From Geosiphon pyriformis (lineage: Eukaryota; Glomeromycota; Glomeromycetes; Archaeosporales; Geosiphonaceae), in NCBI GenBank assembly GCA_016748015.1, contig JAAOMT010000672.1:257094-321093 (forward strand): DNA of 64,000 nucleotides, given 5' to 3'. The notes beneath the pieces are model-generated. The model saw only the letters and a list, made by a program, of their open reading frames with translations, searched no databases and was not told the DNA's origin. A program made the position numbers and the translations under genes. Each line of letters begins with the position of its first letter. Within the stretch, counting starts at the first letter, position 1. Shown in pieces: positions 1,450-62,235 of this stretch.

Positions 1450-3875
1450 CTATGAAATATACTCCCAACTGGCCCTGGGTGCATTAGAATCATCCCACAT
1501 TGAAAGAAGAACTGACGCTCGAATCACTCTTGGCAATGTATAAGGAACCTTGTTAAGCCATAAATAGGGTTCCTTCAGATGAAAATAACTCCTTTCTGTC
1601 ATTGCTTCATTAAGATTTTGTGACAAATAATTTCGACCTTTGTATATGGCAGAAATCAAAACGCCATCAGATGGCCAACTTTGTGAGGCAGCCTGTAATA
1701 ATCTAATCACATAACTCGTTTCTTCCATATTGCCACTAGCATTAACAGATGATTGTTCACCCCAGCTACCATCTGCATGCTGCAAGGACAATGCATAATC
1801 TATTGTGGCTCTACAAAAGCTCAAAAGATCACCTTTTGTTTTAAACGAGGTTTTAGAGAGCATCTTTGGGTTTTGTTGAAGGGACAGAAGCACTTGTATT
1901 GATTTCATTGTTGTGTACCACGGACTGGAATGCCAATGATCTGTCCATATGCATTGTGAACTTCTCTGAGATCGAATAAATTCCAAGGCAGGGATAATAA
2001 AACAATCAATTCTTACTCTTTTGGAACCTTCTTCTGTGTCAACATCGACATCAAGCGGAAATTCCAACCTTTTTTTCGCATTTTCACGTTCGGCCAATAA
2101 GAATTGTACAATGTGCACATTAGAACTCGTTGTGAATGCTTCCTCATCTGGAGAGTTGAGAAAGTATTCCCCATTCCAGAAATCGTTAATAAATGGTTCA
2201 AGTTGAATAGAGTAGGAAGGATCGAATTGAGTGATTAAATAATAAGCAATCGCAGTTTCATCGACGCTCGTTGGCATTTTATTGTCAAAGCTAGCTGAAC
2301 GCAAGACACCTTTTTGTTCAATAAGCAATGCTCTGAGATAGCTAATAAAACATTGTAAAGATGCAATCATTTGTCTCAAGATTCGAGATTTTGAAGCACC
2401 TCTTTTTTGTCTTGAATTCATCATTGCGATTTCACCAAGTGATTGCAATACTGCACATGCTTCAAAAATTCCAAGATCACAAATGGTAGGTACTAGCCCA
2501 AAATTGGTCGCGAAGGTAGGTCGTTTCGCGAGCAACCTCTTTAAAAATTTGAACGCCTCATTATCCCAATCGTCTGATCCAATCAATACAGCGGCTGTGG
2601 CAGCTGGTGAAGATCCATAACTGCCATTATTTGCCCGGAAGTCAGAAGTTTGAAAATAGGATAGATTCATAGCCCCAATAAATGCTTCCAGCCAATGCAG
2701 AATTGTCGTACGCTGATGTTCCTCTGCCAAAAAGAAAATGTCTTTGAGTATATTCACATTATTATCCTGAAAAAGTTCGGCCTGATTTGGGAATTCCAAA
2801 GTTATTGGAGGCTCAAATTTTTCCAATTCTGTCAAGTGATAAGGAATAATTAATTCAGCACCGCTTGCAGAGCTGGTTTCGTGAATGTCCCATTGATTCA
2901 AACTAAAAGCAAAAACAGAAATTAGAGGGTCAAATTCCTGAGAAGAAAACTCGTTCTTAATGGCGATACTCAAGTTCAGGATTTATCTCTTTTCTTCTTT
3001 TTGAAAACTCACGCCAATCGTAAAAAAGCCTCGTTCCTTAAAAAAGCATGATCATATTGTTCCTAAAGGTTTAAAGAAATATTAAAAAGACAAATGCGAG
3101 AAAAGTGGAAAAACAATGGATTTCAAAAATGTCAACTGTTTACTCGAGAAATGCCCAATTCAGTCAACTTTTCTTCAAAAAAAGATTCAGTATTGATACG
3201 AAATTTTCCAAGAGCCAAAAGTGTTGCCATAGCACTTGAAACACTTTGATAACCGAAACCATTTGAACCTCCTTCAACATGTTGCACATCGATTAACCAG
3301 GTGAAGCATTCTGGAAATGCCAGTTTAAACTTGCTCGGCATTTGTATCCTTTTATATTGAGCTTCAGGCACCATCGAGAGCCAAGCAGTATCATACCCAG
3401 ACATTGAAATATCTCCAAAACCGATCCAATGTCTTTTCTCATCCTCTGCTGGCCGTTTTGCAGTTTGTTGTGGATTTCGGAAAAAATTGGGAGAAATATC
3501 CCTGGCCATTTCTTCTAATAAATGATTCGTATGGCTCACCAACTCTTCATTCAATATTTCTTGTGCATTAGTCAAATCTGGCGGTTGATTAGGAGGAGGA
3601 GGAGGAGGAGGAGGAGGAGAAAAAGGTGATGATGAAGGTGGCATGACCCTATTTCGGCCACGAGAATTGTAATTTGCAGATGAAATATCCCTCGCATTTT
3701 GACTATTGATCAATGAACTATCTGGTGTTGTTTCTTTAACGTGAAACTTTCGTTTAACGTTTTTATAAAAATTTTTTGTTTTCATGAAAAATTTCCCAGA
3801 TTTTTTTTGTGCTTTTTGAAGAATGTTTAGTTTTTTTGTTGGTATTGCACTGCCGTTTTGGTTGACTGATGACAT
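1450..3875 (-). CDS. Class II diterpene cyclase-like protein A (CPS-like), altered DXDD box
   Basis: Three exons on the minus strand: 3875-3144, 3062-3013 (50 bases) and 2902-1450, giving 744 residues. The start was chosen at 3875, not the longer open frame to 4031, because all three paralogs then begin with a similar short M-x-S stretch followed by a basic K-x-K-x-FYK motif. Seen: a basic, Ser/Pro-rich N-terminus with a run of nine prolines (about residues 87-95); SGYDTAW at 159-165, matching the SAYDTAW box of copalyl diphosphate synthases; a GSYGSSPAATAA segment; and a QHADGSWG cyclase repeat near the C-terminus. The family protonates geranylgeranyl diphosphate with a DXDD box. Here that box reads SVDE (473-476, bases 2257-2268), so the presumed acid (third position) stays but both flanking Asp are changed. 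There is no C-terminal class I domain and no DDXXD. Inference: an active enzyme with a shifted role, or a regulatory or decaying paralog. It lies head-to-tail with gene B. Confidence 0.85.
3593..3622 (-). repeat. GGA/CCT triplet run encoding polyproline in gene A
   Basis: A (GGA)n run on the plus strand encodes the nine-proline tract in the N-terminal extension of cyclase A. Genes B and C lack it, so it is a recent triplet expansion in a disordered linker and not part of the conserved fold. Confidence 0.85.
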
Positions 3876-6036
3876 TTTTGAGCGAAAGCGAAAACAGCAA
3901 TCCAGCCAATTGCAAACCAAATCAAGCATAAATGGGTGTATTGTGCGAACATGCACTTGGCCTAATAACCTGGAAACAAACATTGAGCGACTAAGCTGTG
4001 CGTGATCTGCATCAAATTCTAGCTGCATCATTGGTTAATTTTAAAAATTCTTGTTACCTTGTGCACAAACTCGAAAATAAAAATAACACAAAGGCGTCAT
4101 TTATCACAAGTTTTCTAACCATTTTCATTTTTCTCATTATATAGTATATCACACAAAAATGATTAATCCGTAGAGATCTCGATTGCTATCTCATGTGTGT
4201 ATTTAATGCATCAACATGAATTAGTTTCTAATGCATGGATTGAAATCCTGAAAGAAGCTATTTTTGCCAGCTGAAAAGCATTAATTATTCCTCAAATCTC
4301 GCAATATACCAAATTGAATATTTAAAAGTTTTCGAATAGCCAATTATTATTTTAATAATTGAAATCCCTTATTTCCATCACTTGGTGTGGAACATTATCT
4401 ACTGTTTCAGCGAAATGCGGTCACTGATTAATAAAAGCTGGTGTAACGTGTTCTGTAGCAAGTTCAAAGCCACTTTCGACTCTCCACCATTGAATAACAA
4501 CTAAAAACTAAATTGTTTATTGTTACTCGATTCGAAATCTGGTCACCTTGACCTTCACTTTGTTGAATAATTTCATTTTAACCATCATTATTATGAATAC
4601 TCAATTTATTAAACCAACACAAAAGGTAAATCTGAAGTTTTTTAATCTACGAAAAATTGGTGGATATCCTAAATCACATTCGTATTTGCATTTGTATTTT
4701 AAGCAATTATATACAGTGGATTTTGAAGTCAAGGATTTTCAATAGTCTATTTGTAAATAAAACGTAAACATACGTGTTTTTTCCTGCTTGGAGCTATTTT
4801 TAACATTTGTTTCAAAATTTTAGGTTTTTCCATTGGAGAATCCCAATAAAAAATAGCTTTGGTGACGAAATAATTATTATATCCTAAACCTATTGAGAAT
4901 TTAAAAATTTAAATGAATCTTTCAGTTTGGAATGGGATACTTTAGATCAAAATGTAGGTGAAATCAAAATTTCATTTTTAAATTTTTCATTCAGAAATAT
5001 TCATTCTTGTTCTTTAGGAAATAAATTATTTTTTGAATATAAATGTTAAATATGAGAATTTTACTTGTAAATGTACTTTGATTTTATAATTAAAAATTTT
5101 ATCTAATACATTCTATCAATGTATTGTTTTTATCAAAAGAATTTTGAATCAGAGATTGCATCATAATGAAAAGTTCTTTTTTGTTATTGTCAAAAGTACT
5201 GCTAATTCACTTTGAAGTTGACTAATATGTCTTGTGTAATCTCTCTATAGTTACTTGAAACGGTGGGGATAATGAAAAAAGTCACAATATTTGAAACATC
5301 ATGTCAATATTGAAACAAGGAAAAAAAAAGTGCATATTATAATTTTTTAAAGAATAAAACAAATACGGAAAGATTTAAAGAAAAAGATTGTGAACATGAT
5401 GATTACCTAAAATAAGACTAAGTATGACGACCAGAGGTTTTGGCCATTTCATAAATTAAAATTTTAAATTGACAGATATTCAAAATAATTTTATAGCGTT
5501 AGCTTGCAGCAAAATATTTCACTTCAATATTTTGTTGCGAATCTTAAAATTATTTTCTACAACATTTTTTCATTTCTCGTTCAAGGGGTCAACAGTTCAG
5601 TTCCTTTTGAAATCATCATCATGCTATCGTATGCCAAAATAGCTTTGAAAAATTAGTTACCTGAGCATTGGAAATAAAACTTTAGTGAAAAGTGTGATAT
5701 AATAGTCCATTTTTTATTCAAATATTCTATTGAGAACTGAATTTTTGCTAATTTCTTTGAATTTAAATAATATTATGATAATTTTGTAATTTTCCCAACA
5801 CTTTAATTTCTATCTTTTTGAATAAGATATTAGAAAGAATTATAATGATTACTACACGTTAAAACGAGTGAAAGTTGATCTCAATAAAAAAAAATTGAAT
5901 CTCTTTTTGAAAAAAATTTCACTTATTGAGTCTATGTTACTAAATCTACAATTTTTTCTCAATGCTGATGATAGTGTAAATGGCATCAGAAAAGTTAATT
6001 AAAACCTTTTTTTATAATGAAGAAGAGGCTACTAAT
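3876..6036. other. Intergenic between cyclase genes A and B
   Basis: About 2.2 kb holding the promoter side of gene A and the 3' flank of gene B. A TATA-like stretch (tatatagtatat, about 4139-4150) lies some 265-275 bases upstream of the A start. Short open frames (for example 4548-4745, plus) have no recognisable domain and AT-driven composition. No gene is supported. Confidence 0.5.
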
Positions 6037-8401
6037 TTAAAGTGAATTATCCCAAAGCGAGAGTAAAACAGATGCCCGAATAACTCGGGGAACGGTATAA
6101 GATACTTCACTTTGCCACAAAAATGGTTGCTTATCGTAAAAATAATTTTTTTCTGTCATAGATTTAATAAAGAGTTCTGCGATTAATTTTTCTCCTTTTG
6201 CAATTGCAATGTCTATTTCCCAATCATTTATCCAATATTCTTTTGCCGCTTTTAATAATCGAACAACGTAAGTAGTTTCTTCCAAGTTTCCAATAGATCC
6301 CTCCCCAAATCGTTCACCCCAGCTGCCATCATTGTGCTGTGTAAAGAGAGCTTGTTCAACTGATTCCCTACAATATCGTAAAAGTGCAGGCTTATTGCGA
6401 AATGGTGATGTAGAGAGAATTTTCGGATATTGGGGAAGTTTAAAGAGAAACCGAAGGGTCCTTAATGTAGGATACCAAGGACTAGCATGGCATTTATCAA
6501 ACCAGCAGCCATTTTCGTCACGCTGCGATATGACGAAATCGATGGTTGTATGAATAATATGATCGGCATTTATTTTTCGACTATTTTTTGTTAGGATTTC
6601 AATTTTCAGGGGAAATTCCTGCCGTTTCTTAGCTTTTTCACGTTCAGTTACCAAAAGCTCTAAAGCGTGAATATTTGAAGAGATTGAGAAATCCTTTCCT
6701 TGCTTAAAGGATAAAAAGCACTCGTCGTTCCAGAAGTAATTGATCATTGGCTGAACAACATCTCGATGTTCTTTATCAAATGAGGAAACCAAGTAGTTTC
6801 CAACAGCTATTTCGTCAATATTTGCTGAGCGACTCTTCGAATCGAACCAACTCGATCTTGAACCTTTCGTAGCAACCCGGGTTTTGATATATTTTATAAA
6901 ACTTTGAAATGAAACTTTAGTTTGATTCAGATTTGATAATAATAGGGTATTTTCTTCAGTTTCGATTAAAGGTTCTGAAATTTTTTCAGCGATGCAATAT
7001 ATCATCCAATACGTTTCAAGAGTACCAATATCAAGCTTTTGGGAAATACTCTTGTTTTTCAATACTGAAGTTTCCAGGCGTTCGTATAAATTTTTATTCC
7101 ATTCCTGTGATAAAGTAAGATGGGCTGCTATAGCCGCTGCTGATAAGGTACCATAATGATTGTTGTCCTGGAAGTTTTGAGTTTGGTGTTTAGAATAATC
7201 TTTAAAATGAAGCGGTGGCATTAAAGAAGACAAATTTGTTGTTGCTTGTATTTTTGCTGCCTCGTGAAAGATTTCTTCGAGTGACAGTCCAAAAAGATTT
7301 TGATATCTATCCCCGAGGATGCCTCGTTTAGCAGGAAAGACAAAAAAAACCGGAGGATTAAGCTTTTCCAAGGCAGCCAAGTGATATGTGGTCATTAATT
7401 CAAATCCTGCTAAATGTTCACCATCATCCACAGTTAGACGACCAAGCCTTTAAAGCATTATAAAAACATTTAGCAAGTATATCTTATTCCCAAATGCAAG
7501 AAACCTTCAAAAAACTCACATGTCTTGTAAAAAGAGCTCACCTCTGGAAAAAACCTGATTAAATTTTGCCTGTAGTCTCGAAATGATGGGTTATTTTTAA
7601 AATTGGAGTCATGATTGAGAAATTTTAAATATATCATATTAATAACTTTGGTAGAGCATAGTATTGATGACTTACCATGGTTAAACCCAACTCTTGTATC
7701 CTACTTTGAAAGTAAGGACCAGATCTTTCCCGAAACATTCCAAGGGCAAAAAGACAGGCGAGAGCTGTTGGAATATTTCCAAACTCGGTACTATGCTGAC
7801 TTGCTTCATTTACTTGAGAATTTATCAGCCAAACCAAGCTTTCTGGGAAAGCAAGTCTGAAATGGCTTTGGTCTTCTACCATTATGTAATCTGACACAGG
7901 AACCAAAGATATCCAGGCGGCATCATAAAGTGAAATTGTTAAATCCTCGGAATCATTCTCATTTGAACTTTTTTCTTGTATTGCGGAAAATTCTGGTTCT
8001 TGGTAAAATTTTGGTGAAATATTCATAGCAACCTCATCCATTAAAATATTCATTTGTCCAAGTAAATCATTATTGCAAATTGGTTTTATTTCTTGTGTTT
8101 GGGTTTCGAGCACAATTGAAGAGCCTTGATTAGTCTCAGGAACTATAGTATTGGTTTTGAAAGAAGCTGGATCGAATTCTCTACATGTAACTGATAAATT
8201 ATGGGAATCATTTATAGCAGTAAAAGGGATAGCTGTTGAATACGGAATTGGTTGGTTGCTACTTCGTTTTCCAAAAACTTGACATTTGATATATTTATAG
8301 AAATTTTTACTTTTGCCCCCAATTTTTGAAGTGGGCTTTAGAAATTTTCGAAAAAGACTTTTTTTTCCTGTTTGGGTAGTTTCTCTCTTTTTAGAAAACA
8401 T
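6037..8401 (-). CDS. Class II diterpene cyclase-like protein B (CPS-like), most diverged copy
   Basis: Three exons on the minus strand: 8401-7676, 7569-7520 (50 bases) and 7447-6037, giving 728 residues. The start at 8401 matches the starts of A and C; the frame is open further, to 8503. Seen: a basic N-terminus with KSKNFYKYIK; SLYDAAW at 157-163 in place of SAYDTAW (Thr to Ala); NIDE at 468-471 (bases 6811-6822) in place of the catalytic DXDD; and QHNDGSWGE plus a following GNLEETTYVVRLL segment, as in A and C. The GSYGGSPAATAA block of C is degraded here to an HYGTLSAAAIAA-like form. The frame is fully open with clean splice sites, so it is not an obvious pseudogene. Known for the family: DXDD is needed for protonation-initiated cyclisation. 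Inference: activity on geranylgeranyl diphosphate is doubtful. No class I domain is present. Confidence 0.82.
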
Positions 8402-9954
8402 TTTTATAAAGCCTTTAATGTGTTGCTGCTTTTCATAATCACTTTGAAAAGCGTTTTCTCGGAATTCTCGCATCTTAAACCTATTTATGTATTGCCTGAC
8501 CATTCAATCTCAACTAAATAGGCAAAGTACAGAAAAATTATTTCAATTGATCTATTAAGGGATAAAAATAGTAAAACATTTTTCCTGCATAATAAAAGTG
8601 TAATACAGTTATGTACATTTGAAAACTATTTCTTTAAAATTTTGATTGAGTTGAGAGCTTTAAATCAGAACTAATAAAAAAATATGTAAATTTTACTCTA
8701 GTTCATTTCACAAAGAGTTACTATTCATAGAAGTGTAAGAAAATTGTTTATTTTAAAAATAGTTTAGCTTTAAAAACTATGAATGCTGACGCCAAACTTA
8801 AAAAGTATTAATTACAGAATATCAAATATTTAAAGGTTATTTTTTGATTCCATAGAATTTTTCTTTTCATGTGATATAGTTTGCCAAAGTTTACTTTTAG
8901 ATATTTCTAAAATCAAATGACAATTTCTTCGTCAAAAGCTAAATAATTGATTTATGAAAGACTAAAAATTTATTCATATTCGCTTCATATATATAGCAGG
9001 TAATCGTCTTGTATTTTAAAATGTATGCATCATATTTAGAAGGAAATTTATCATTACTTTGAAGACAATTCTACATAAATTGTTCATCATGTTATTTCCC
9101 GGATCAATCAACTTTCCTTTTTCTTCATGTAAGACCAATTTCCTTATGCGGGGGTCTCAAAATCGTTCCATGCTACTTTTATATTCGCTTATATTATCAA
9201 AATTTTCAGCCATTCATATTGGTTTAGAACATTCTGGTCTATTTTTAACTACACTCAAAAATAGGCTTAAAAATACATTTGGTTATTTTTAAATTGAGGT
9301 TAGGTGAGGATTATTTACCAAACAAAATTGGCCAGCCTAACTTTTATCAAAAATGGTTAACAATAAGGATCCGAATTTTTTACTGCTTTTAGAATGGGTA
9401 TTATATAGAAATCAGGTGTATTATCTATTCTATTAGAAGAATGATCAACATTTAATAATAGAGGTTTTGTTGCGAAAGAAAAAACCCCCTATAAAGTGAA
9501 AAAGTTTAATCCTGCTAAATTGTTTTGTTTAATTTTGTTTTAAAAAATAATATTGATCCTAATTGTTAAATTTGATCCCTTTTTATAAGCAAATTGTGTT
9601 GAATTTTCAACATGTCAAATTTTAAATTGAATCTGGCTCCCGAACAAATGTGTTTGTTTGATAAAAGGTAGTCTCAAAAGTATGAACTCATCACAGTTTA
9701 ATTACTAAGATGATATAAAATTTTTATAATGCTATAAACCGTTAGCTTTGCCAGATGATAATCAAAAATTACTCTTGTCTCATAATATGCAGCCATACTC
9801 CTGTTGGTTGTTTGCCGACTTTTTTCAATTGTTCTATCTTTGGTTAATTAATATTACTTTTTTCTCTCTGATTATTTTTGTATGTTGGGGTGGTTGTAAT
9901 TTGGTAATGCTGCATGTTGTTTTTTGTGTAATTTTTTTATTATCTGTGTAAATT
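8402..9954. other. Upstream region of cyclase B, no further gene seen
   Basis: Moderately AT-rich flank upstream of gene B. It contains a few open frames of 60-77 codons (9059-9292 and 9748-9951, plus) with no domain, no splice partners and Phe/Leu/Asn-rich composition typical of chance frames. I see no gene. Confidence 0.5.
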
Positions 9955-16346: not shown

Positions 16347-18401
16347 ATGTTGATTCTTACAATCATTCTTATAATATTTGGCTGGTTCATGCTGCATCAA
16401 CATAGAAGATATCGAGCACATAAAGACTTAATGTCATTACCTGAACCAGCTGGGAAATGGCCATACTTGGGTAAATTCAGAGTTGACTTTTATTGCATTT
16501 GGTTGATAGTTTTCATTGATTTCTATCAACCCTTAGGTCACTTACCATTAATTTGGGGAAAACAATTACCTAAAAAGTATGTGTCAAGTTGATCTACATT
16601 TTTTGATAAACCGTTTGCCTTAGAGCTGATTGAGACATCGCACTTATAGGTTTGCAGAATGGGGTAAAGAATTCAGTGGTATTTATATGATTTGGTTAGG
16701 TCAACAGCCTTGGATTATCTTAACGAGTGACACCACAATTCATGATCTTTTGCATATTCGTAAGTTTTAATTAGAAACCTTTGCTATCTATCAATTGAAT
16801 ATTCTTAATAAATAATTTTCTTCTTACCCGCCAACCAGGAGGTGTAAAATATTCCTCACGAAGTTACGCTTATTTCACATGGGAATTGGTTGGAAGAAAA
16901 AGATCATATCTTACATCCCCCTATAATGATTGGTATAAAAAGGCCATGGGGCCAGGTAAGTTTAATCAAGATATTTTGCCTTAGTAACTTTGAACTCAGT
17001 TAACTGAACATCTTTTTAATTCAGCTCATAGTATATTAGGGCAACGCCAGATTGCATCTTATGTCAGCCTCGTAGACGAATGTACAACCCAGCTACTAAA
17101 ATTATTAAAAAAAGATGGAAATTTATCAGAAGGAATTTTCCCACGAAAATATTTTCACCACACTTTCTTAAACGTGATTTTAAACATCAACTTCGCATTC
17201 CATACCGAAGGGCTTCACGATCCTCTATACCAAACCCTGTTTCGATTGACAGAAGAATGGTTCAAGATGGCAGGTGCCACAAAAATATACGATTTCTTGC
17301 CCATCCTGAGATACTTCTCAAATCGAAGGAATACAAAGAAAAAGGCTTTATTACTTCGGGATGAGTGGGAAACAACTGTAAGAGGCCTCTATAACAGAGT
17401 AAAGAATGATCCAAACAAGACTCCTTGCTTCGCTCGAGATTTTATAAAACAAACGGAAGAAGGAACATTAGATGAGTTTGATATTATTCATTTAGCTCAT
17501 GACATGCTAATGGCTGGCACAGTAAGTGAAAGATTTGAATTGTTATTTTAATGAATGTATGAATCTTTCTAATCGAAAATTTTTTAATTTGTAAAACGAT
17601 TTTTTATAGGACACGCTCGCTTCTGCTATGACTTGGTTAGCAGCAATTCTGGCAACTCATCCGGAAATTCAGGCTAAAGCACATGAGGAACTTGATCGTG
17701 TGGTAGGAAAGTCTCGTCTTCCCGATCTAAACGATGAACCATCTCTCCCATACATTCGAGCTCTTATCAAGGAAAATCTTCGTTGGGCACCACCAGTCTG
17801 TATTTAGTTTCTTGTACTGAGGATATTTTTCTTATATCTAATATGTTTGAACTGTTTAAATTATAGGCTCCATTAGGTGCACCCCATTTCATTGAAGAGG
17901 AGGATCAATATATGAAATATCATATCCCAAAAAATAGTGTTGTCGTGATGAATATTTACTCAGTGCATTCAGACGACAAACGGTACAAGCACCCTCATAA
18001 ATTTGATCCCACACGATTTTTAGGCAATAATGAATCCGCCGCTTCCTCGGCTCAAGGGGATCCAAAGAAAAGGGATCATTTTACTTTTGGTGCCGGGCGA
18101 AGACTTTGCATTGGAGTTCATTTGGTAATTCTCATATTATTTTTAGGTCTATGTTTGAAAATGATAATTCGTTTTAACTTCATTGAACAATTACCCTATT
18201 TATCTTTATTTTGACTCAATATAGGCCGAGGTTGAGCTTCAATTAGCAGTCTCACGAATTCTTTGGGCGTTTCGAATTGAGCCTGTAGAAAAAGTAAATT
18301 TGAATGATTATGATTCTTCGTATACACAATGGATAAAACCTTATCATGTTCGCTTTGTACCTCGACATGAAGAGGTTGATAAAGTTTTTGAAGCAATTTA
18401 A
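16347..18401 (+). CDS. Cytochrome P450 monooxygenase, complete
   Basis: Eight exons: 16347-16470, 16537-16576, 16650-16759, 16839-16955, 17025-17521, 17610-17795, 17867-18124 and 18225-18401, giving 502 residues, a normal length for a microsomal fungal P450. Seen: an N-terminal hydrophobic anchor (residues 1-17) followed by basic residues and a Pro-rich hinge (LPEPAGKWP); the I-helix motif AGTDT (294-298); the K-helix ExxR as ENLR (351-354); the FDPTRF meander; and the heme loop [12 protein letters not shown] with Cys439 as iron ligand. All signature residues are present, so it should be a functional ER-bound enzyme needing a P450 reductase. Exon 6 ends at a GTCTGT donor, the weakest splice site in the model. 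Substrate is unknown; its place between three diterpene-cyclase-like genes suggests, but does not prove, a terpenoid substrate. Confidence 0.92.
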
Positions 18402-18666
18402 ATATTTAATCATAGAGCTTAAAGGACGTTTTTATTGTTAATAGATAAGAGGTTAATTCATATTCGATGCAAAAAGGCTTTTCATTAAATGAAGATGTTT
18501 CAAGTCACCCCATAAGGGTCTATAAATAATTTTTAGACATCAAAGAAAATTTTCAAATACATAAACGAATGACGTACAAATATGGTCTCGTATTTAGCTG
18601 TTATATATATTACGAGATTCTTCGCACACATTAAATCGTTAAAAAAATAATGAATCCAAAATTTCT

Positions 18667-20163
18667 TTAATGTTCCTGAACTTGAACATTAATACCAACA
18701 AATAAGTTTGGTTTCTTCACCTCACAATACTTGTCACTTAATGCTTGTATTCTTTCATCAGGATCCATCCAAATTGGATAAAAAAGTATCTTATTAAACT
18801 TCGTCTCAATCCTATGTACAAAATTTTCAAGGGCATCCCAAGAAACTCGATACAATCTCAAATCCAAGTCGTGAAGCGATTTAGGCAAGGCTTCAGCAAA
18901 CATCGGTAAAAACTCTTCGAAATTAGGATCATGAAAGGCGAAGGCTGTTAATTCTTCAAGATATCGTAGATTTGATAAGCATTCCAAGAATTCGATGAGG
19001 GTATCCTCATAAATTGGGATTGAGAGGGAGACAAGGCTTCGACAATATAACCCGATGGCCTGAAAAATACTTCGACTAATATTGTTGCTTGGATGAATTT
19101 TTAATTCTGTCAAGTCTTCCATAAGATCATTTATAACTGGCAACAGAAAGTCTTTATCGAGTCTCGGCCAGGAAACCTCAAACTTGTTTAAGCGAATCAT
19201 GGAAGTCGCCAGAGGTTCCCAGAATTTCGAAACTGGTTCATCACTCGGAAGTAAGCTATTATGTATCTGAATTGTTTTTAATGCAGTCCAGCCGGCAATC
19301 AATGATAGGTCTGGTGCTTTCTTGGTCTCAATAAATCGCAGCGTTTTTAGGTTTTTTGCTTGAGGACTAAGGGCTGATAAGAATTTGTTACATCCCGAGT
19401 CAAAAAGGTAAAAAAATATCTCTTGTAAATGATCCTGATTCTTAATCAAATCTAGAAAATGGTCCCCTAACGAGGGCACAGCTTCTATAAATCGAAAATC
19501 GATTCCAAGACAAGCAAGAAACTTTGTGACGTTTTTAATCTCAATGACAAGATTAATAATATTTGGCATATCTTCACTTTCGAATCGTTGGATATCTCCC
19601 CAATTATAAAAACTTTTCAATTGTGAAAGAACTGGGCCTGCTTGTGGATATTGTTGAAAATTCGGAACACGGGTAATTTCTTCAGCAACGCTATACAGAC
19701 GCGGTGCTCTGATTCCAATATACTCTAGTCCGGTGGAGTTTTCTAATATTATTTTACAAACTGCTGTAACGATCTCAAAAAATGCTTGGCCATCTGTACT
19801 TTCTCCTTTGGGATAATTATCTGAAAAATATCCGAAATCTAATTCTTTGATGAACGAAGGGTAATTGAATGTTGGTTGATTTATTTCTTGAATTTCGAAG
19901 TAATAATTTCGTAAATTTATTCTGTCATCTTCTGAAAGATACCAGAATAGAGTTTGGAAAAAACTAGAAGGAAGTCGTTTATCTTTTTCGGTAGGTTGGA
20001 ATGGGTTTGACCAAATTAGTTTTACAACTTGTCGACACCATGATCGATTTACTAATGCGCAGCGTAAAAGAAAGGATTTTTGGTTTTTAAATTCAGAAAA
20101 AATTTTTTCAAGGGATTCCGCAGGTAGCTGTACTGAGGCTTTGCTGGTATTTTGGGCATCCAT
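18667..20163 (-). CDS. F-box protein with leucine-rich C-terminus
   Basis: A single uninterrupted exon of 498 residues. Residues about 13-56 form an F-box (LPAESLEKIFSE, then CALVNRSWCRQVVKLIW). The remainder is a long, Leu-rich, irregular LRR-like region. F-box proteins recruit targets to SCF ubiquitin ligases through Skp1. The sequence pattern 'LVNRSWC...LIW.NPF' followed by 'FNYPSFIKELDF' is the form I know from the large F-box families of arbuscular mycorrhizal fungi, and it is part of the basis for the organism call. Being intronless is usual for that expanded family. Its stop lies about 265 bases from the P450 stop, the two genes converging. There is no evidence that it belongs to the terpenoid pathway. 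Confidence 0.85.
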   Translation of the reverse strand: MDAQNTSKASVQLPAESLEKIFSEFKNQKSFLLRCALVNRSWCRQVVKLIWSNPFQPTEKDKRLPSSFFQTLFWYLSEDDRINLRNYYFEIQEINQPTFNYPSFIKELDFGYFSDNYPKGESTDGQAFFEIVTAVCKIILENSTGLEYIGIRAPRLYSVAEEITRVPNFQQYPQAGPVLSQLKSFYNWGDIQRFESEDMPNIINLVIEIKNVTKFLACLGIDFRFIEAVPSLGDHFLDLIKNQDHLQEIFFYLFDSGCNKFLSALSPQAKNLKTLRFIETKKAPDLSLIAGWTALKTIQIHNSLLPSDEPVSKFWEPLATSMIRLNKFEVSWPRLDKDFLLPVINDLMEDLTELKIHPSNNISRSIFQAIGLYCRSLVSLSIPIYEDTLIEFLECLSNLRYLEELTAFAFHDPNFEEFLPMFAEALPKSLHDLDLRLYRVSWDALENFVHRIETKFNKILFYPIWMDPDERIQALSDKYCEVKKPNLFVGINVQVQEH

Positions 20164-21734
20164 ACCTTAATTTTAAAGTGAAAAATTCAACAAATGTAAG
20201 AGTGAGCTAAAGGCTGTTTTGTAATTCGAAAAACCGGAACTCGAGATCTTTCCCTTTTCATTCAGAGCAATCTTCATTTTGCCGATTTCCCCTTTATTAG
20301 ATTACAAAACCCAGCCCAAAATTGAAAAAATGATCTGTTATGCTAATTGATGTTACAAGGATGTGCCGAAATTGACGAACAGCCTTGGATTCGTCTCGAT
20401 TCCAGTTCCACTGCATAGCCTTTTATCATGAATGCTTATCGATTATCAATAATCTTGGACGCATGAAAGGATAACTATTAACAAGTTTAAAATAAATGTC
20501 ATATTCAGAGAAAAATTCTCTTTTCAATTTAGTAAATATTTTATCCAAAAGTTATTTATCGAAATTTATTAAACAACAAATAGGTCCTAACAGATGTTGC
20601 GTACCGAAAGTGCATTGATAATGGAAAGAACAAAAAAAACAAAGCGTAAATCTAACAGGTATTATTTGTTAATTCATTTTGATAACTGAAAGTTTTGAAA
20701 ATCCTGTTTTTGATAAAAATTAACAAAGCAAATTGTGATTTGAGATCAAAATTTAATATATAGAGATTGTGTTTTTTAATTCAAATCAAATACGAAAACC
20801 AATATTGCAAAAATAGAAAAACATCCAGTTTTTTTTATAATATTTGAGTAACCCAAGAAGCAATCAGATTTATAATAATCCAATAAAGAAATATTTAATT
20901 TGATGTTTAAATGCAATTTTTCCAAAAGATTTTATTTACCCAGAGTGACAAAATAATATTGAGTATAATTATTTTTTCCAATATAATTTACATAAAAAGA
21001 ATGACTTAATTGTAATTTCAATAAATAAAAGAATTTAAAAGAGAAAATGAAAAGAACAGGGAATTATTTATATATATTTTATTATTTATTATACCTTCAA
21101 ATCAACTTTTTATATATATAAAACATTCAAACTCAAAGTTACGTCTTCAGGTTTTTTCTCCAAGGTTAACTTTTTTAATTTAAGACTTAAATAACACATA
21201 AATTGTGTTAATTATTAGGATTTCTTGGAAAAAAAAGATATTTAGTTTTAAAATTCTATTTTGGTGCAAAATATATTGAATGAAAATTATATATTAAAAA
21301 AATAATTTATATTATTAATAAACATGTAACTTGAATACTCAAGTTTTATCAATTTTAAAAAAATAATAAGTTAAACTTTATGTTTAAATTATATCTAATA
21401 TAGTTTTTTACAATTTTAATAAAAACAATACCCAATATTGAATTAATGTTTTTTTGTAGCTTTGAGTAATATTACTTTTATACATATTAAAGGTAATCAA
21501 TAAATAACTTGATGTCTTGGTCAATAATTAAGTTAATAATTTTTTTTTGATATTAAAAATAGAAAATCTAATTGATTAATATTATATGAATAATATGCAA
21601 AAGAAATATAGCCTTAACAACATATTATATATAAATTGGTTAAATTGATAATTAATTAAACAAAATTCCAAAAATTGGTTTTATAAATTTTATACTTTAT
21701 AAATTAATAAATTTAATTAAAAATAAATTAAACA

Positions 21735-21766
<32 letters not shown>
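21735..21766. repeat. AAT microsatellite
   Basis: Uninterrupted run of about ten AAT units in AT-rich intergenic DNA. Confidence 0.95.
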
Positions 21767-21768
<2 letters not shown>

Positions 21769-22882
21769 GTCGTATAATTATTTTTATTATTATAATTTTG
21801 TAACTTAAATTGCCTTTTATAAATAAAAATCTATTATAATACATATTTTTGTGTGCAAAGAGTTAATTTTATTTATGAACAGAAAAATGGATAAAAACTC
21901 CATAAGCTCATTTTAACATATTACTGAAGGCATTAAAAGACTTGAAGTCAGATGAAAGTTGAAAAGCAGTTTATCTCTCCTTTTTTTGCTTGCATACTTG
22001 TTTCTTTCCTTTCAATTGAAATATGCTATTAAGAATTTCACAGTTTTTTTTATAAAATTACAGAGAAATTAATGCAAAGTCTCAGTATCAATCGATTAGG
22101 TTTAACCCCTTGAATAAGCCAATTTTAACAATCTTAACTCGGGATTTAACTGAGGAAGCAAAAAATTTGATTGGCTACAATTTTATTGACATTCGGCCTA
22201 GAATGGTTTGAGGTTGATTGATCGAGTTTTACTCATAAATTATCGTAATTTCCTTTGAGACAGGAAAAAGTTTGATTATTTTGAAGCTAATTATGGGAAA
22301 GATTTCAGAAAAGTGATTATTTTGAGCTAATTATGGCAACGATTTTAGGAAAGAGAAGAATTCAACAAAAACCCTTTGTTTCAATTTTTTTACAAAAGTT
22401 CTAAACTTTAAATCAGAACAATAGAAAAATATCGACTAATTGTAAGATAAAATTTTTTTACTTTAACGACTAAAAAAAATACATTAATCCTTGTCTTTTT
22501 TTGTCATTGAAATGATAAACTTTCCATTAAGATAATCTCTTCAGATCTGCTTCAATGGGATTTTCCCAAGACTTATTTGTATGCAAAATTTACATTCTGG
22601 TATATACCGTATTAAAAATTGGATGGAAAACTCTTTAGTTTAAGAAATTAACGTTTGAATATGGTTGAGCAAGGATCTAATATTTTTTGAGAAAATGAAA
22701 GCCAATAATGTAATCCATTATGTAAATATGTATGATTCATGATGAAAAAAATCTTTGGCACAAAAATTTCGGTCATGAAACAATGGGTATGATTTCTTTT
22801 AAAGGAAATAAAGTTATCACTTGCATAGATATACGTCATGAATTTTAATATTAATCTAATAGAACCCAAAAATATGGGGTTT

Positions 22883-22901
22883 TGGTTGGTTGGTTGGTTG
22901 G
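22883..22901. repeat. GGTT microsatellite
   Basis: Four to five GGTT units in intergenic DNA; a G-containing repeat stands out in this AT-rich background. Confidence 0.9.
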
Positions 22902-23695
22902 AAACCAAGATAAGGTTTTTCAAAAAAAAGTGGTTCTCCTTTTTGGGTAAGAAATACAGACGATCTTAAGCAAACATTATTCAATTGACATTCTCAAAAA
23001 CTATGTAGCTTAAAATTACAATTTTTTGTGAAATGAACTTCATTATTGACGATTATACAGCCTCGATTGATTTTATGCATTTGCCAATTCTTCCTTTGTG
23101 TACCTTTTTAGGTAAGGAAACAAAGAATCTGAAAAAGGGCAAATTCTAAAAATATTTTTTATTTCCTCAGCTATACAAAAACAAACTCTTTACAAATTAA
23201 CTCATATTCGGTGTGCTTTTAAAAAAAAGAATGAATCTTCAAATTAATTAGATTTAAGAATTTTATCCATCATAGTATAAATGATGACATCTAAAACTTG
23301 ATTATTCAATGGAACGTTCGCATTTTTGATCCTAGCAAACAAACAGCTGAACTAGTTTAATAGGAACAAAGTTTTTCCGATTTTTTAATATGGAATTTAT
23401 ATTTTGATTCAATTTAAGAAAAATACTAAATTTTTAAGGTTGTTGACGCATAATGGATAAGGTTGTCAATTTTTTTTGTTCTTACATTAAGAAAATTAAA
23501 AGAGATCCTTTGTATTTGACCAAACTATTCATACGATGGATTAATAAAAAAATTCATTCAATTAAATTTGACAGAATATTCGTTTTAAAAAGAGTTTAAA
23601 CCATTATTGGGTTTTAAATAATAAAATCTCGATGATGCTAATATAAATATCCATTGGCAACTAGAAATTGTGAACACTATTTACATCTATAATGG

Positions 23696-23733
23696 ATATT
23701 TGCGTCCATTTGCTTGCAAATGGACGCAAATAT
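23696..23733. repeat. Perfect 18-base inverted repeat, 2-base spacer
   Basis: The left arm atatttgcgtccatttgc (23696-23713) is followed by TT and by its exact reverse complement (23716-23733). The arms contain GCGTCC, richer in G+C than the surroundings. No gene flanks it closely. It could be a hairpin, a palindromic protein site or the remnant of a small inverted-repeat element. Confidence 0.95.
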
Positions 23734-25404
23734 AAAATTACACCTAATCAAATAATCTTTGTGTTATAGAAAAAAGGATTTGAATGTGGCTTAACTTTAA
23801 GTAAAATATATTTTTAGGATTACATATGATCAGCAGGCAAAAATTCAGGAGTTAGATTTTATTTGCTGGAAATATTTTTAAAGTTCAACCATTGATTTGA
23901 AACTACTGGTTGTTAGTTAAGCATTAGGTTTGGATTTAAACCTAATATATCTTTGAAGGAACCAATTATTTCTTTTAGGTCATCCAATTTCATCAATGTT
24001 TTTCAAAATTGGTAACCCAGGAATCTGTTCTACATAAAATTCTGGGTGTTAACTGCCAAAACACGAATGAATAAAAGTCCTCGCCGTACATAATTCTTGT
24101 GTTCGATTTAACAAATTGAATCATGAAACATTAAAGTTTAAATCATTATGTAGATAGTGAAAAAGAGTGTTACTAAAGTAAAAGAAACTTCTGGGAACTT
24201 TTAAAAATAGTCATAAAGTTATAATTAAAAAATTATAGCTTAATGAAGTTGTTCAGTTGTTTAGGTGCTAACCTGGTTTCTGAGATAAAATTTATCCCTA
24301 AAGTTACATTTTTTAGTTGAACCCAAAAAGCCAAGTGGGACCAATTCATAATGTGTATTTTGATTTAATTATTAAAAACAAAGTTTTCTTTAAAAAAACG
24401 CTTTTAAGAAAAAATAACCATGTGTAAATTTTTTTTTATTGCCAAAATAATATTATTCACGTATCACAATTCCAAAAAAAATGGACACATACTTATAGCC
24501 TGGGAATTTTTCCTGTGTATGCAAATTTATTTGGCAGACCTCCTTGAAACAGAAGATGGGACGAGAAACCTTTTTTTTGCTAATTAATTCGAAATTTAAT
24601 ATAATAATCAACCAGAAAATTTATTATCGGAATATCAATGCAGAACATTGAGCCAAAGGTATCGTATCTGGGTAACTTTAAAATTTTTATCGATTTCGAT
24701 TACTACTTCCAGGGTTGATTTCCTTTTAGGATAAACATGCGTTCGATCCCAGCGACTGAGATTGTCAAGTTCTGCAGAAAATTTAATTAAAAATTTAGCC
24801 CCAGGTCTTATCTTTTAACCCAGTTTTTGGTTTTTATGGTAGTACAGATTGAATATCCCGGAAATTCCTACATTTTTTTACTATTTGTAATTGAAAGATT
24901 AACGTTTCATTGGCCTTTTCAAATTATTTTTTTCTGTGTGTATGAACAATCCCAAATTGCTAGATTTTGGGCCCCAAAAAATTATGAACAATACAAAGAT
25001 TTTTAATAAAAACTTGATTAACCCCTAAAAATTCCAATTGACCAGAAACTCGCTACTAACGCCCAAATTTTAAGTTTTTCGAGTAAAGGACTATGAAAAT
25101 GGCTATTTAAAATAATAGTAAGAATATAAGAAAATTTTTAAAGACCCTACAATTTGTACGGTTTCTCTAATTCTAATTGATAGTCCTATTATGCAACGAT
25201 ATCCTTGCACAATCACCAGATTATTTACCTATCTTTGTTCGAATATAATATGTGCAAGATACCAAAAGAAGCGAGCCTTTTTAATACACAGTCATAACCA
25301 TGTATAACTCATTGCAATTATCAAAATGGAATAGGTTAAACATATAACCTATCGCTTTTCCTCCCAAGCGATGAATAAATATTATAACTGAATCTAAAAT
25401 CAAG

Positions 25405-25536
25405 AATTTGTTTTCGTGTGACAGCTCTGTGAATATTAAAAATTATATTTCCAGGAATCAAATAATCTTAAATTTGTTTTCGTGTGACAGCTCTGTGAAT
25501 ATTAAAAATTATATTTCCAGGAATCAAATAATCTTA
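25405..25536. repeat. Perfect tandem duplication, 2 x 66 bases
   Basis: Two identical 66-base units lie end to end (25405-25470 and 25471-25536). The unit length is a multiple of three, so one frame reads through both, but no gene signal surrounds it. Perfect identity means the duplication is recent or an assembly artefact. Confidence 0.95.
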
Positions 25537-26864
25537 AAGTTGTCTCATTCGAAGTTCAATTTCCCAAACCAAGATTCTGGGATCCAATAATTGCTCCTTT
25601 TTTTTTAAAGTTAAATCGTAATAAAGAAGAGGAAACACCCTCGTTTTAAAGTTTTAGATAAGCAAGTTTTTAAAAAAGCGTTATCCATGTGTCAGGGAAA
25701 AGAACAAATTTTTTCTTTAATTTACAGATCTTTTGGTTAATGAAAATCCAAATATTACTTTTCTGGAGCCTTTAAACTTAAAAGAATTTATATTCATGCT
25801 CATTTGGAGAAATCTAAAAGTTACACCCTTATTATTTTTTATTACCAAATGATATCTTTAAAGTTAAATAAGAAATTCCTCGTGTGACTAGTTTACCCCT
25901 CTTCTGACCCAGTGAACTTTAACGGGAAAAACCTCGAAGTGGTAGATCCCAAGATTTTCAAGCAGAAGAAATGAGGTCTATCAGTGCTTTAAATATATCT
26001 TTAGAAAATTTTATTAGTTCACCCCCTCCCCCTAATAGTAACTCATACATCATCAGAACGGTGATAGTAGAAAACTGTTTGAAACTTTCTCATATTTAGT
26101 GATCTCAGTTGAAATGAAATTTTCCAAGACTATAAATCAGCAGTTCAATTCGAAAATTTTCCTTATCATGTTCCTTTTGCTCATTATCAGCAATTAAATT
26201 ATTGTTTTTTTCAGTTTTATTAATTATAGACATGAATGAAAAAGCATGGAATTTTGGTACATGTAAGTACTGAAATCATATTTAAAGTTAGGACACAATG
26301 TTTTACTCCGACGGCGACGTTAAGCATACATAATGCATTAGACTAATCGTAATGAGAAACTTTAACGATTTAAAAAGGGTTTGGAACGCCACAGAATTCG
26401 AACCTACAATAATGATATTTAATATCCGAACCAGATCTTGAAATATTGCCCACTTTTCATCCCTTTATAGATGTGTTTGATCAAAAAATGGCAAACCCTT
26501 TTATGCACTGTTTAATTAACCAACAGGGAAAAAAAAAATTTTCCTCATTTAAATGTAATAGATAAAGCATTAATTAACATGGTTTATGAATAAAGTTTTC
26601 TTGGATAAAAAAGTTAGGGGTTCATGCCGAAAAAGGATATTCTTCTAGCATATAGTCCGACATTAAAAACATCAAATCATAGAACCTTCCTGCCAATTGA
26701 ATTAAGGTTGCTTGGAGTGTAATTCCAACGAAGATTCTTTTTATGTGCAAATTAACGGTCCTTCATTTTAGCTTGGTCTGACATTTAGAAGTAAATGAGG
26801 TTTCAATGTACACCGATCTTGGTGAATTTTAGGGGTATCTGATCCCAAAAACACTCGCGCCAAA

Positions 26865-26873
26865 TATAAATAC
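26865..26873 (+). promoter_or_regulatory. TATA-like box of cyclase C
   Basis: The sequence TATAAATAC sits in a locally less AT-rich segment about 165 bases upstream of the cyclase C ATG. The call rests on position and sequence only. Confidence 0.4.
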
Positions 26874-27032
26874 ACCCGGGTTTCGGAACTTTTGAGATTC
26901 ATGTCTTGAAAGAAATAAAAAATCTTTGAGACACTTGAACTTTCTATAAATCGGGCTCTTTTTATCTCTATCTAAACTTCAATTCTTCAATTTTAAAAAT
27001 ATCAAAAACTTCCTTTAACAATTTGATAATCA

Positions 27033-29441
27033 ATGCATTCTGTTCGTGAGACGAATAGTGACGCAGGAATTCAAACATTTTTTAAAAAGGCACAAAATGG
27101 TTCAGTAAGAATAGCATCAAAAAGTAAACAATTTTATAAAAGTTTAAAAAAAAATATTCAAAACAAAGTCAAATATGGTCCTGAAGATCAAGATGCAACT
27201 TTCCATAGCTCCCCTCAAAAAAGTTCCTTCTACAGTACCTCATTGTCAAGCCCCAAAAATTCTTCATTTGTATCATCCCAAATACATCCGGCTTCATTGA
27301 AACATAATGATCCGTGTCCAAAAAGCGAGTCAATTTCATCGCCTAAAAATGTTCAACATATCGAAGAGGTGTCCAAATTACAGCTAGTTCAATACACAAA
27401 CGAATTACTATACGAAATAGCAATGGGTATATCTCCAAATTTTTTCCAAGATCCGACTGAATCGGCCATACTGACCACAGACAAACAAGAAAACACCGAA
27501 TGGGTTGGTTTTGGGGAGATCTCAATGTCTCCGTATGATACGGCTTGGGTTGCCATGATACCAGTTCCAAAATATAAAGAGACCCTCGATCCTCAAGATT
27601 TCCAGTTAGCTTTTCCAGAATGCTTCATATGGTTATTATTTTCGCAAAAGCTTCACGGTAGATTGCCTCACGTTGGTCCAGGATGTATCAGTCCTTTCTT
27701 TGCAATTCTTTTGGCACTTGGGATGTTTCGCAAAAGAAGCGGTCCCTACTTTGAACAAAAGCTTCGGGAAATGAATATTACACCGGTAAACTTTTTACAA
27801 TTGATGGTTTTTAAAATTGAGAAATTCAATCCTTTGATCATTATTTAACAATTCATTTTGATAATTAAAAAAGTATCACTTTGAACGATTTTTTGAAAAA
27901 ACGCGAGCCCAACTTAGAAAAGCGTAAGTAATTAATCTGCAAAGCTTTTTTTTGATCTATTAATTTTATCACTTATTAATCTTTCTTCCTTATTTGAATT
28001 TAGATTAAATGAATGGGATATTGATGAAATTGATTTTTCTGGATTTGAAATTATTATTCCTTATCATATGAACGAATTAGAAAAATTGGATCCACCCGTT
28101 ATCTTTGACTTTCCAGACAAACAACGACTTTTAAAGGAAAATCAAAGAAAAATGAGCATACTGCCAGTAGATGCTATCTTTGCCATGGCAGCTAATCGTA
28201 AACCTGTGTCAATAATTTATTCCTTAGAGGCTTTAAGTGGAATAATCGACCTTTCGCGCTGTCAAAACCCAGGATTTCAGGCATTGAATGGTAGTTACGG
28301 GGGATCACCTGCGGCTACAGCCGCAATTCTAATTTCGGCGCCAAAATGGGACCACAAAGCATACGAGTTCTTAAAAAAAGCTATAGAAAAAAGACCACAA
28401 TACGCTGGAGGTTGTGGTTACGTGCCCACGGTCTACGATGTTGGTACATTTGAGATATGTTGGGTGATGCATTGCCTTGGTGAAATTGTCTTGAAATCAT
28501 CTCAGCAAAATACCTTAAACATTCCGTCTACGCTTTTGGAAAAAACCAGAGCTAATTACGGTTCTTACATTACTTATTTGAAAACCATCCTTGAACATCA
28601 AAAAGGAACTTTACGGTGGACCAGTTATGACAATAGAATTCCAGCGGACGTAGACGATACAGCAGTAGCTTATTTCTTGATCACACAATTTTGCCCAAAC
28701 TATAAATTTGATCTGGAGAAATTGATGAAATCTTTTTGGAATGGCACATATTTTATTACATTTCCAAAAGAACGTACATTTTCAGTGAGTTGCAATTCCC
28801 ATGTTCTATCACTTTTAATATCACAGTACGAGATTGTCAAAAAGCAACAACTGAATGGTGATTTGGAGACAACAACTCAGCTACCGGCTGAATCATCAGC
28901 AATCGACTTACATCATGTAATTGTTGCAACCACCAATTTTATTAAATCACAACGTAAGGAAAATTTTACATGGTCAGACAAATGGCACAGTAGCCCTTGG
29001 TACACAACGATGAAATCGATTTCGACTCTTCTAAACCTACAACATTATCCTGAATTGCTTTCTGCAACTTCGTTTAAAACTAAAGAAGCTCTCTTTGAAT
29101 TCTGTGGTGAATCAATTGGTCGTGCTCTATCACTTCAATATCCTGATGGCAGCTGGGGTCAACGGTACATTGATAATTCATCTGGAAACATGGAAGAAAC
29201 TAGCTACATCGTAAGACTACTGCAGGCTGCAAAAAAAACCTGGATAAAAGATAATGCTATTTTAGAAGCAATTACAAAAGGACGTCAATTTTTGCTTGTC
29301 CAATTCGAAGATGCGGTCACAGATCCGAACTTTTTCCATAATCAAGAACCCCATTTGTGGATTGCTAAACAACTTTTTACCGCACCACGAATCATTCGTT
29401 CATCGATACTTCTTGCACTCTGGGATGAATCGAATGAATAA
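27033..29441 (+). CDS. Class II diterpene cyclase C (copalyl-diphosphate-synthase-like), intact DXDD
   Basis: Three exons: 27033-27785, 27874-27923 (50 bases) and 28004-29441, giving 746 residues. Seen: a Ser-rich, basic N-terminal extension (about 1-110) with KSKQFYKSLKK; SPYDTAW at 166-172 (family box SAYDTAW); the NGSYGGSPAATAA segment; DVDD at 483-486 (bases 28647-28658), which matches the catalytic DXDD box; and QYPDGSWGQ followed by GNMEETSYIVRLLQ near the end. Class II diterpene cyclases protonate geranylgeranyl diphosphate to a bicyclic copalyl-type diphosphate. Fungal versions are usually the N-terminal half of a bifunctional enzyme of roughly 950 residues; here the protein stops after the class II domains and no DDXXD is present, so it should be monofunctional and need a partner. 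Product stereochemistry cannot be read. It is the only one of the three paralogs with the full catalytic box. Confidence 0.9.
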
Positions 29442-35520: not shown

Positions 35521-35860
35521 GAACTAACCAGCCACCCTTATAATCGATCCTGAAGCAAAGCCACCGAACATCAGAGGCGACATGAGCCACATCTCTCAAC
35601 CTCTAAAACACAATTGGCGACATCAAAACCCATCCAACACCGTAGCCGAGGTTGGCGCAACCGTGTCGTCACCCGCTATCGCATCAATCTTCTCTAAACT
35701 TGGCCCTAGGAATCCAAACCCTATCACGATGTCCAATGACGAAACCCCTAACTATACGATTTTCAACCTTGTCAACGTATCGTCCTTCAAAACATTCAAA
35801 CCATTCCTTTGAGCACGAAGCCCTTCGCCTGCGCAACACTCAATTGAGAATACTTTAATT
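35521..35860. other. Base-rich island with decayed coding character
   Basis: About 340 bases visibly richer in G and C, including many CG dinucleotides, than anything within several kilobases. The plus strand has a 76-codon frame (35582-35812). The minus strand, read across a few stops, gives a more protein-like run containing Leu/Ile/Val/Gly-rich stretches. I recognise no family. It may be a fragment of a transposon or of transferred DNA. No splice sites join it to the lipase. Confidence 0.4.
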
Positions 35861-61947: not shown

Positions 61948-62235
61948 TCACTTTTCAAAACTTCTAAAATATACGTTAATTAAACTTTTAGAACTATTCA
62001 GATGGATTGTAACACATAAATAATAGACAATCCTATTATTTCCTGCTGCATCAAGCAATTCCCGGAGGAAGATCCCCCGACCGCCGTTTTCATCTCTATC
62101 ATTATCGCACAATTTCGGCAGTTGTACACTTTGGCGATTCTTTGAAAAATTCTCAGATGCTGATACCGCCATCACTACTAGTGAAAAGTGAAAAGAGAAT
62201 TTTGAGTGAGAAAAGCAACTCCTCTCGATTTCCAA
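61948..62235 (-). other. Possible small gene or exon relic, 95 codons
   Basis: The frame is open from an ATG at 62235 to a stop at 61948. The first half is polar and charged and reads like protein; the last third becomes Ile/Asn/Ser-rich as the DNA turns AT-rich, which is what a frame running into non-coding sequence looks like. No domain recognised and no splice partner found. Weak evidence only. Confidence 0.2.

Follow-up and report, generated by a model that had tools for sequence, protein, structure and literature searches.

Three paralogous class II diterpene cyclase-like genes and a cytochrome P450 in the genome of Geosiphon pyriformis

Diterpene cyclases of the class II type turn long isoprenoid chains into the bicyclic skeleton on which numerous plant hormones and defence compounds are built, and the question raised by the locus described here is what such proteins might be doing in a fungus that looks like an arbuscular mycorrhizal symbiont. 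The DNA concerned (hereafter, the window) is a stretch of 64,000 nucleotides of Geosiphon pyriformis, positions 257,094 to 321,093 of contig JAAOMT010000672.1 in assembly GCA_016748015.1. It carries three related genes, A, B and C, whose products resemble copalyl diphosphate synthases (CPSs), and a gene for a cytochrome P450. A preliminary description of this DNA had proposed three paralogous CPS-like genes and one complete P450, and both our gene models and the homology searches confirm them. Our preferred answer, held with reasonable but by no means strong confidence, is that C forms a bicyclic labdane-type diphosphate, that dephosphorylation and oxidation follow, and that A and B are paralogues of altered function or helpers. 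The cyclase-like genes, in window coordinates, are the following.

3875-3144, 3062-3013, 2902-1450, minus strand: gene A, 744 residues, with the acid motif SVDE and YDTAW kept
8503-7676, 7569-7520, 7447-6037, minus strand: gene B, 762 residues, the most divergent paralogue, with NIDE and YDAAW; LHS, GSYG and PNV blocks lost
27033-27785, 27874-27923, 28004-29441, plus strand: gene C, 746 residues, with DVDDTA intact; ends at the beta domain, without an alpha domain
27033..27380, plus strand: N-terminal extension of C, about 115 residues, with a lysine-rich start and the motif KSKQFYK

These three genes were spliced by hand, without transcript data, both strands being read and the other two genes serving in each case as a guide. 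Their layout is identical: three exons, of which the middle one is 50 nt long, with intron 1 in phase 0 and intron 2 in phase 2; all six introns (72-110 nt) run GT..AG. The full alignment gives C an identity of 43% with A and of 35% with B. Each protein consists of an N-terminal extension of about 115-150 residues with a lysine-rich stretch, followed by a cyclase part that continues to the C-terminal end. The extensions have in common the motif K[ST]KxFYK (KTKNFYK in A, KSKNFYK in B); that they serve in targeting or membrane binding would be a guess. Within the 124.7-Mb genome, exon 1 of C (at E <= 1) and exon 3 of C (at E <= 0.001) matched only A, B and C, and no copy of these paralogues came to light beyond the three. 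A prenyltransferase or class I alpha domain was found in none of them, the proteins all ending after the beta domain, and the longest open stretch on the same strand past the stop is 57 residues for C (in 2 kb), 53 for B (as far as A) and 62 for A (as far as the window start). These gene ends rule out a fusion with a prenyltransferase or class I domain, and the possibility that the genes are pseudogenes is disfavoured by the open frames, the common splice layout and the ratio of nonsynonymous (dN) to synonymous (dS) divergence considered below.

The family to which these proteins belong emerges most clearly from the solved structures. C has 13 PDB sequences at E <= 0.1, 11 of them named as diphosphate or terpene synthases, the others being 6vpt (Cyclase) and 7xkx (SQHop_cyclase_C domain). 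The top two are the copalyl diphosphate synthases 8v0f (E 4.7e-33, over C residues 145-677) and 9q3i (E 1e-32), followed by abietadiene synthase (1.7e-15) and by the first bacterial-type cyclases (5.5e-14 and 9.7e-14). The same leaders head the matches of A (E 7e-20 and 2e-19), and B gives a weak result, with three sequences at E <= 1 and a best value of 2e-4. Bacterial relatives of C, which came from a wider alignment that took in bacterial segments, number at least 202, of which 80 were kept, and the top one (E 2e-32) covers residues 1-472 of the 478 of exon 3; the peptide patterns of the A/B/C alignment itself found no relatives in the genome or viral contig collections. In the alignment used for the trees, the identity of C is 27.8% with 8v0f, 26.6% with 9q3i, 29.5% and 29.3% with two rows from Thermoflexales (labelled L018 and L019) and 22-24% with two plant rows; A is 25% and B 18-21% identical to 8v0f/9q3i. 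Homology to the gamma-beta part of known class II diterpene cyclases was thus found for the trio, B, weak by itself, being included as a 35%-identical paralogue of C. Judged by their sequences, A, B and C are class II diterpene-cyclase homologues that have the gamma-beta part only, with a resemblance far beyond chance, and the cyclase family claim, for which the preliminary description had proposed a protein search, is borne out by the PDB and bacterial matches. A triterpene cyclase, of either the oxidosqualene or the squalene-hopene type, was considered and rejected, neither type being present among the 13 PDB sequences of C. On another contig, C113, there is an exon with matches to lanosterol synthase (E 3e-9) and to 8j5z (E 5.5e-15), so that a sterol-type cyclase is encoded elsewhere in the genome.

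In the class II family the proton donor is the middle Asp of the DxDD motif. In C, each of the ten motif blocks that we inspected can be recognised from its residues, among them YDTAW, DVDDTAV, DKWHSSPWYTT, DGSWG, EET and LWIAK, though its LHS block reads IYS and its PNV block PTV. A keeps the six blocks just listed except for DHWH (in place of DKWH), LWLNK (in place of LWIAK) and SVDE (in place of DxDD). B has YDAAW, NIDE, DKCH and LWQSE; it keeps DGSWG and EET, and the areas around LHS, GSYG and PNV are lost. A complete DxDD is therefore found only in C (DVDD), and A and B are filed as paralogues, not as DxDD cyclases. Among the 42 bacterial rows of our alignment, position 1 of this motif is Asp in 41 and Glu in one, position 3 is always Asp, and position 4 is Asp in 31; the motif is DADD in both fungal rows and DIDD in those three plant rows that have letters at this place. 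The Ser of A and the Asn of B at position 1 were not seen in the bacterial, fungal or plant rows. The solved bacterial cyclase 6vpt is also altered in this motif (DCDT). C is likely to have class II activity.

All three genes appear to be under constraint. For the pairs within the cyclase core, amino-acid identity is 37-46% and dN 0.47-0.60, with a dS (1.96-2.65) so near saturation that the ratio can serve as no more than an indication; where residues are shared, 55-72% of the fourfold sites differ. Because dN lies well under dS and the fourfold sites have diverged, the trio, B included, seems to have been preserved at the protein level since it arose by old duplications.

What, then, might C make? 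In the scheme that we favour, geranylgeranyl diphosphate (GGPP) would be supplied by a GGPP synthase encoded elsewhere in the genome, the middle Asp of C's DVDD would protonate the terminal double bond of GGPP, and C would close two rings to give a copalyl-type diphosphate, with the diphosphate retained. The steps after this class II activity, and with them the product, the part played by the P450 and the roles of A and B, are ones that we infer: the copalyl-type product would be dephosphorylated and then oxidised by a P450, perhaps that of the window, to labdane-type products, and A and B, which keep the middle Asp and have lost its partners, probably take another substrate, make another product or help C. 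A labdane-type route, like the LabdA pathway, is likely because no class I synthase was detected. As for the supply of GGPP, PF00348 has six exon matches on three contigs of the genome. The best matches of one of these exons (on contig C372) are GGPP synthases (E 5e-16), and it also matches the C-terminal parts of 8v0f and 9q3i, aligning at residues 671-721 and 698-749, respectively.

The candidate for the oxidation lies between B and C, with one further gene beside it.

16347..18401, plus strand: cytochrome P450, 8 exons, 502 residues, complete, with ENLR; possible tailoring enzyme
18667..20166, minus strand: F-box-like protein, 498 residues, between the P450 and C; no evident pathway role

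The P450 matches PF00067 over residues 32-476 (E 6e-80), and its best solved matches are CYP1B1 (E 2e-44) and CYP1A2 (E 2e-42); one of its splice donors, GTCTGT, is unusual. By chance alone, the 18.5 kb that separate B from C would contain a P450 with a probability of 0.8%, and the span from A to C with one of 1.2%, both being post hoc figures derived from 53 gene-sized P450 groups (a lower bound) in 124.7 Mb. We regard the link to the cyclases as suggestive.

Several observations weigh against this scheme, and they are best considered together. None of the three proteins reaches the cut-off of any Pfam model, and A and C are without a match in NCBIfam. For A, Pfam gives SQHop_cyclase_C below its threshold (15.2 of 26.1 bits); the gamma-beta segment of 8v0f is likewise without a Pfam match, and the bacterial L018 does match SQHop_cyclase_C. 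Farnesyl diphosphate (FPP) could take the place of GGPP as the substrate. Split genes could have escaped the exon-by-exon search in which class I terpene synthases (PF19086 and PF03936) had no candidate in the genome; for PF19086 the built-in controls were silent and four of five actinobacterial genomes positive, and for PF03936 one control was positive, below its cut-off. Neither a phosphatase nor a prenyltransferase was recognised in the window or its 40-kb flanks, where the open reading frames (ORFs) were inspected by eye and five of them searched with Pfam, save for a dual-specificity phosphatase near 45 kb (45019-45678, minus strand; PF00782, E 2e-10). Finally, the window P450 is a member of a dispersed subfamily with 13 other loci at 38-45% identity, and thus at least 14 members; the comparison was supplied with 48 loci, the window's own included and four places entered twice, of which 40 matched. 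The P450-centred cluster of the preliminary description is accordingly weakly supported: the placement of the gene speaks for it, and the dispersed subfamily, together with the position of the GGPP-synthase-like gene on another contig, speaks against it.

An unlikely alternative is that the product is not a C20 compound at all, the enzyme being either a class II synthase that converts FPP to a drimenyl-type diphosphate or one that cyclises a meroterpenoid or an epoxidised chain. Cyclases of epoxide substrates need a less strong acid, and the weakened acid motifs of A and B resemble theirs in that respect: both have kept the middle Asp and lost the first one, a position held by Asp or, once, Glu in the bacterial rows, and 6vpt provides a precedent for an altered motif. 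Against this, nothing in the sequence fixes the chain length, and the fungal relatives such as LabdA use GGPP (PMC10744899).

Rather unlikely, too, is the notion that A and B, or even all three proteins, are catalytically dead or regulatory, being kept as subunits or for some other function, so that only C, or none of them, would be an enzyme. B lends itself best to such an interpretation, with its YDAAW, its lost LHS, GSYG and PNV blocks, the loss of both the first and the last Asp of DxDD and the fact that it hardly matches the solved cyclases. Nevertheless, it keeps DGSWG and EET, and dN is well under dS in all three pairs (with dS near saturation), although purifying selection alone is no proof of catalysis.

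The ancestry of the trio bears on a bolder proposal. Our main tree had 51 rows (42 bacterial, four plant, two fungal and the three of the window), the bifunctional copalyl diphosphate/kaurene synthases (CPS/KS) of Dikarya not being included. In it the trio forms one clade (100/100) that joins the two fungal CPSs at 91/89 (a node that was not starred), and the Thermoflexales rows come next after the fungal CPSs at 83/65; approximately unbiased (AU) tests rejected none of four other groupings (p 0.22-0.40). In a second tree, from which B and one short plant row were removed and to which seven bacteria were restored, A and C join the fungal and plant rows at 76/76. With such sequence trees a plant origin of the trio is not settled. 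It would be quite speculative, and in our opinion doubtful, to suppose that the trio represents a native stand-alone two-domain family of arbuscular mycorrhizal fungi that did not come from the plant-to-Ascomycota transfer (see below), with C taking the first step towards a labdane-type compound that serves the root symbiosis as a signal or in defence, and with the acid site of A and B changed so that they cyclise pre-oxidised (epoxide) prenyl chains or enter a mixed complex with C.

More improbable still is a gibberellin-like pathway, in which C would be an ent-CPS feeding ent-kaurene and then gibberellins, or their precursors, that act on the host plant. C does fall in the CPS family, and the preliminary description had pointed towards gibberellins. 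A His-Asn dyad (LHS/PNV, in the gamma domain) marks the CPSs of gibberellin type in plants and bacteria and is reported not to mark the fungal ones (PMC11469919), so that its absence is no exclusion. The dyad is complete in none of the three proteins: C has IYS/PTV, A has LHW/PTI (the His only) and B has LSS with no counterpart of PNV. Moreover, a class I domain of the kaurene-synthase type was neither present in the trio nor detected in the genome, and the locus holds a single P450. Without a complete dyad in the trio or a detected class I partner, the gibberellin lead is not supported.

There remains the question of whether the locus belongs to the fungus. It lies on a 631-kb contig of an assembly of 124.7 Mb in 406 contigs; the GC content of the window is 28.4%, and the flanking stretches encode Sel1 domains on both sides and BTB and transposase domains on the right. 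The GC content at third codon positions (GC3) is 0.306 in A, 0.287 in B, 0.304 in C, 0.319 in the P450, 0.309 in the adjacent F-box gene and 0.238 in another F-box gene at 58 kb. That the locus is a contaminant, a possibility raised in the preliminary description, or that it reached the genome by very recent transfer, is scarcely credible: although the deep placement of the trio among its bacterial relatives is not settled by the trees, and C is slightly closer to the Thermoflexales enzymes (29.5%) than to 8v0f (27.8%), contamination is very unlikely because of the contig context (631 kb with F-box, Sel1, BTB and transposase genes), the introns of A, B and C, a GC3 like that of adjacent genes, and the presence on many other contigs of relatives of the window P450 with similar break points in their profile matches.

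The nature of the host itself was approached by way of its fatty acid synthesis. PF08354, for type I fatty acid synthase, had no candidate in the genome, and the same search was positive in a Corynebacterium control. Loss of this synthase is not unique to arbuscular mycorrhizal fungi. It is, however, a stated trait of Glomeromycotina (PMC8070225). Two exact patterns for small-subunit (SSU) ribosomal RNA had no match in the genome. Taken together, the GC content of the window (28%), the 124.7-Mb genome and the lack of a type I fatty acid synthase candidate agree with the preliminary description in that the host looks like an arbuscular mycorrhizal fungus.

The closest known systems can be compared part by part. 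The enzymes 8v0f and 9q3i, for which the PDB search names the enzyme only, are presumably the chimeric CPSs of Penicillium and Talaromyces. These, like LabdA, share with the trio a gamma-beta class II part, and with it YDTAW, DxDD and (in 8v0f) DGSWG, but unlike A, B and C they are 959 and 987 residues long and have a GGPP-synthase-like C-terminal part; A and B differ from them also in their altered DxDD. In Talaromyces, labdanes are made by the labd genes (PMC10744899), which encode P450s, a phosphatase and a class II cyclase carrying a fused prenyltransferase; the genes listed include no class I synthase. Our genome has similar parts, but here the GGPP-synthase-like gene stands by itself and the neighbourhood showed no recognisable prenyl phosphatase. 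The gamma-beta-only build is shared by the bacterial two-domain diterpene cyclases, for example 5bp8, which we take to be PtmT2, and the Thermoflexales L018 and L019. The latter two, 29% identical to C, have in both trees the shortest path to A and C of any row outside the trio, and they share I/VYSLEAL and VPT/NV with C; unlike the trio, the bacterial cyclases have no introns in the open frames read, and no such N-terminal extension was noted. The bifunctional CPS/KS enzymes of Dikarya are fungal like the trio, and class II activity would be expected of both, but they are about 950 residues long and have a class I alpha domain. Lastly, the plant CPSs and terpene synthases (3pya, 3s9v and 8i6p) have homologous gamma-beta domains with YDTAW and DIDD; they differ in their weaker match (22-24% to C), in their alpha domain and in the gibberellin-type His/Asn dyad, which is incomplete in the trio.

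Other features were observed in the remainder of the window.

25398-25543: 66-nt unit present twice in tandem, the copies being 95% alike
35528-35855: GC-rich island (ORFs of 45-52% GC) in a 2-kb bin of 19% GC; not repeated in the rest of the window or in the flanks retrieved
36345-37339, minus strand: class 3 lipase gene, one exon of which matches PF01764 (E 7e-14); its start is signal-peptide-like by eye
46770-48117, minus strand: receptor-like gene, possibly a G protein-coupled receptor (Dicty_CAR just over its cut-off, Git3 below)
58043-58984, plus strand: second F-box-like gene, below the Pfam cut-off (the gene with GC3 of 0.238)
59244-59694: run of 451 N, possibly an assembly gap
60690-61556, plus strand: DUF4112 protein

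A dispersed repeat had been suspected at 55300-56650 and 61950-62400 (38-44% GC, short ORFs), but blastn found no mutual similarity between the two. Searches of the window for tRNAs and against Rfam gave no match.

How new is such a locus? We take IPR034686 (TS2) to comprise class I-type enzymes, and not the family of the trio. Four "terpene synthase Type II" homologues of that entry have been described in Mucoromycota, with TS2 clusters in Diversisporales (PMC8070225), and this counts against novelty; terpene cyclases of Mucoromycota are discussed both there and in PMC7466969. A survey of about 1000 fungal species located diterpene synthases in Dikarya (Ascomycota and Basidiomycota) only, with none in early-diverging lineages, and derived the fungal enzymes from a single plant-to-Ascomycota transfer (PMC4617483). 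The same paper records that eight hits were set aside as too small or too large in comparison with the classical enzyme of about 950 residues, and because wrong-sized hits were set aside the survey could have missed two-domain forms (PMC4617483). Among the open-licence PMC papers that our searches listed, we recognised none that reports class II diterpene cyclases from a mycorrhizal fungus.

Two-domain class II cyclases in an apparent mycorrhizal fungus would widen the known distribution of these enzymes among fungi and allow a test of the plant-to-Ascomycota origin. The paralogues A and B pose an enzymological question of their own, namely how a class II cyclase might function without the first Asp of DxDD. 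To our knowledge, arbuscular mycorrhizal fungi are difficult to transform, and not many small molecules that they make themselves have been described. A defined enzyme that could be expressed in Escherichia coli and supplied with GGPP would therefore offer a direct way to ask whether such a fungus makes labdane-type compounds that plants perceive.

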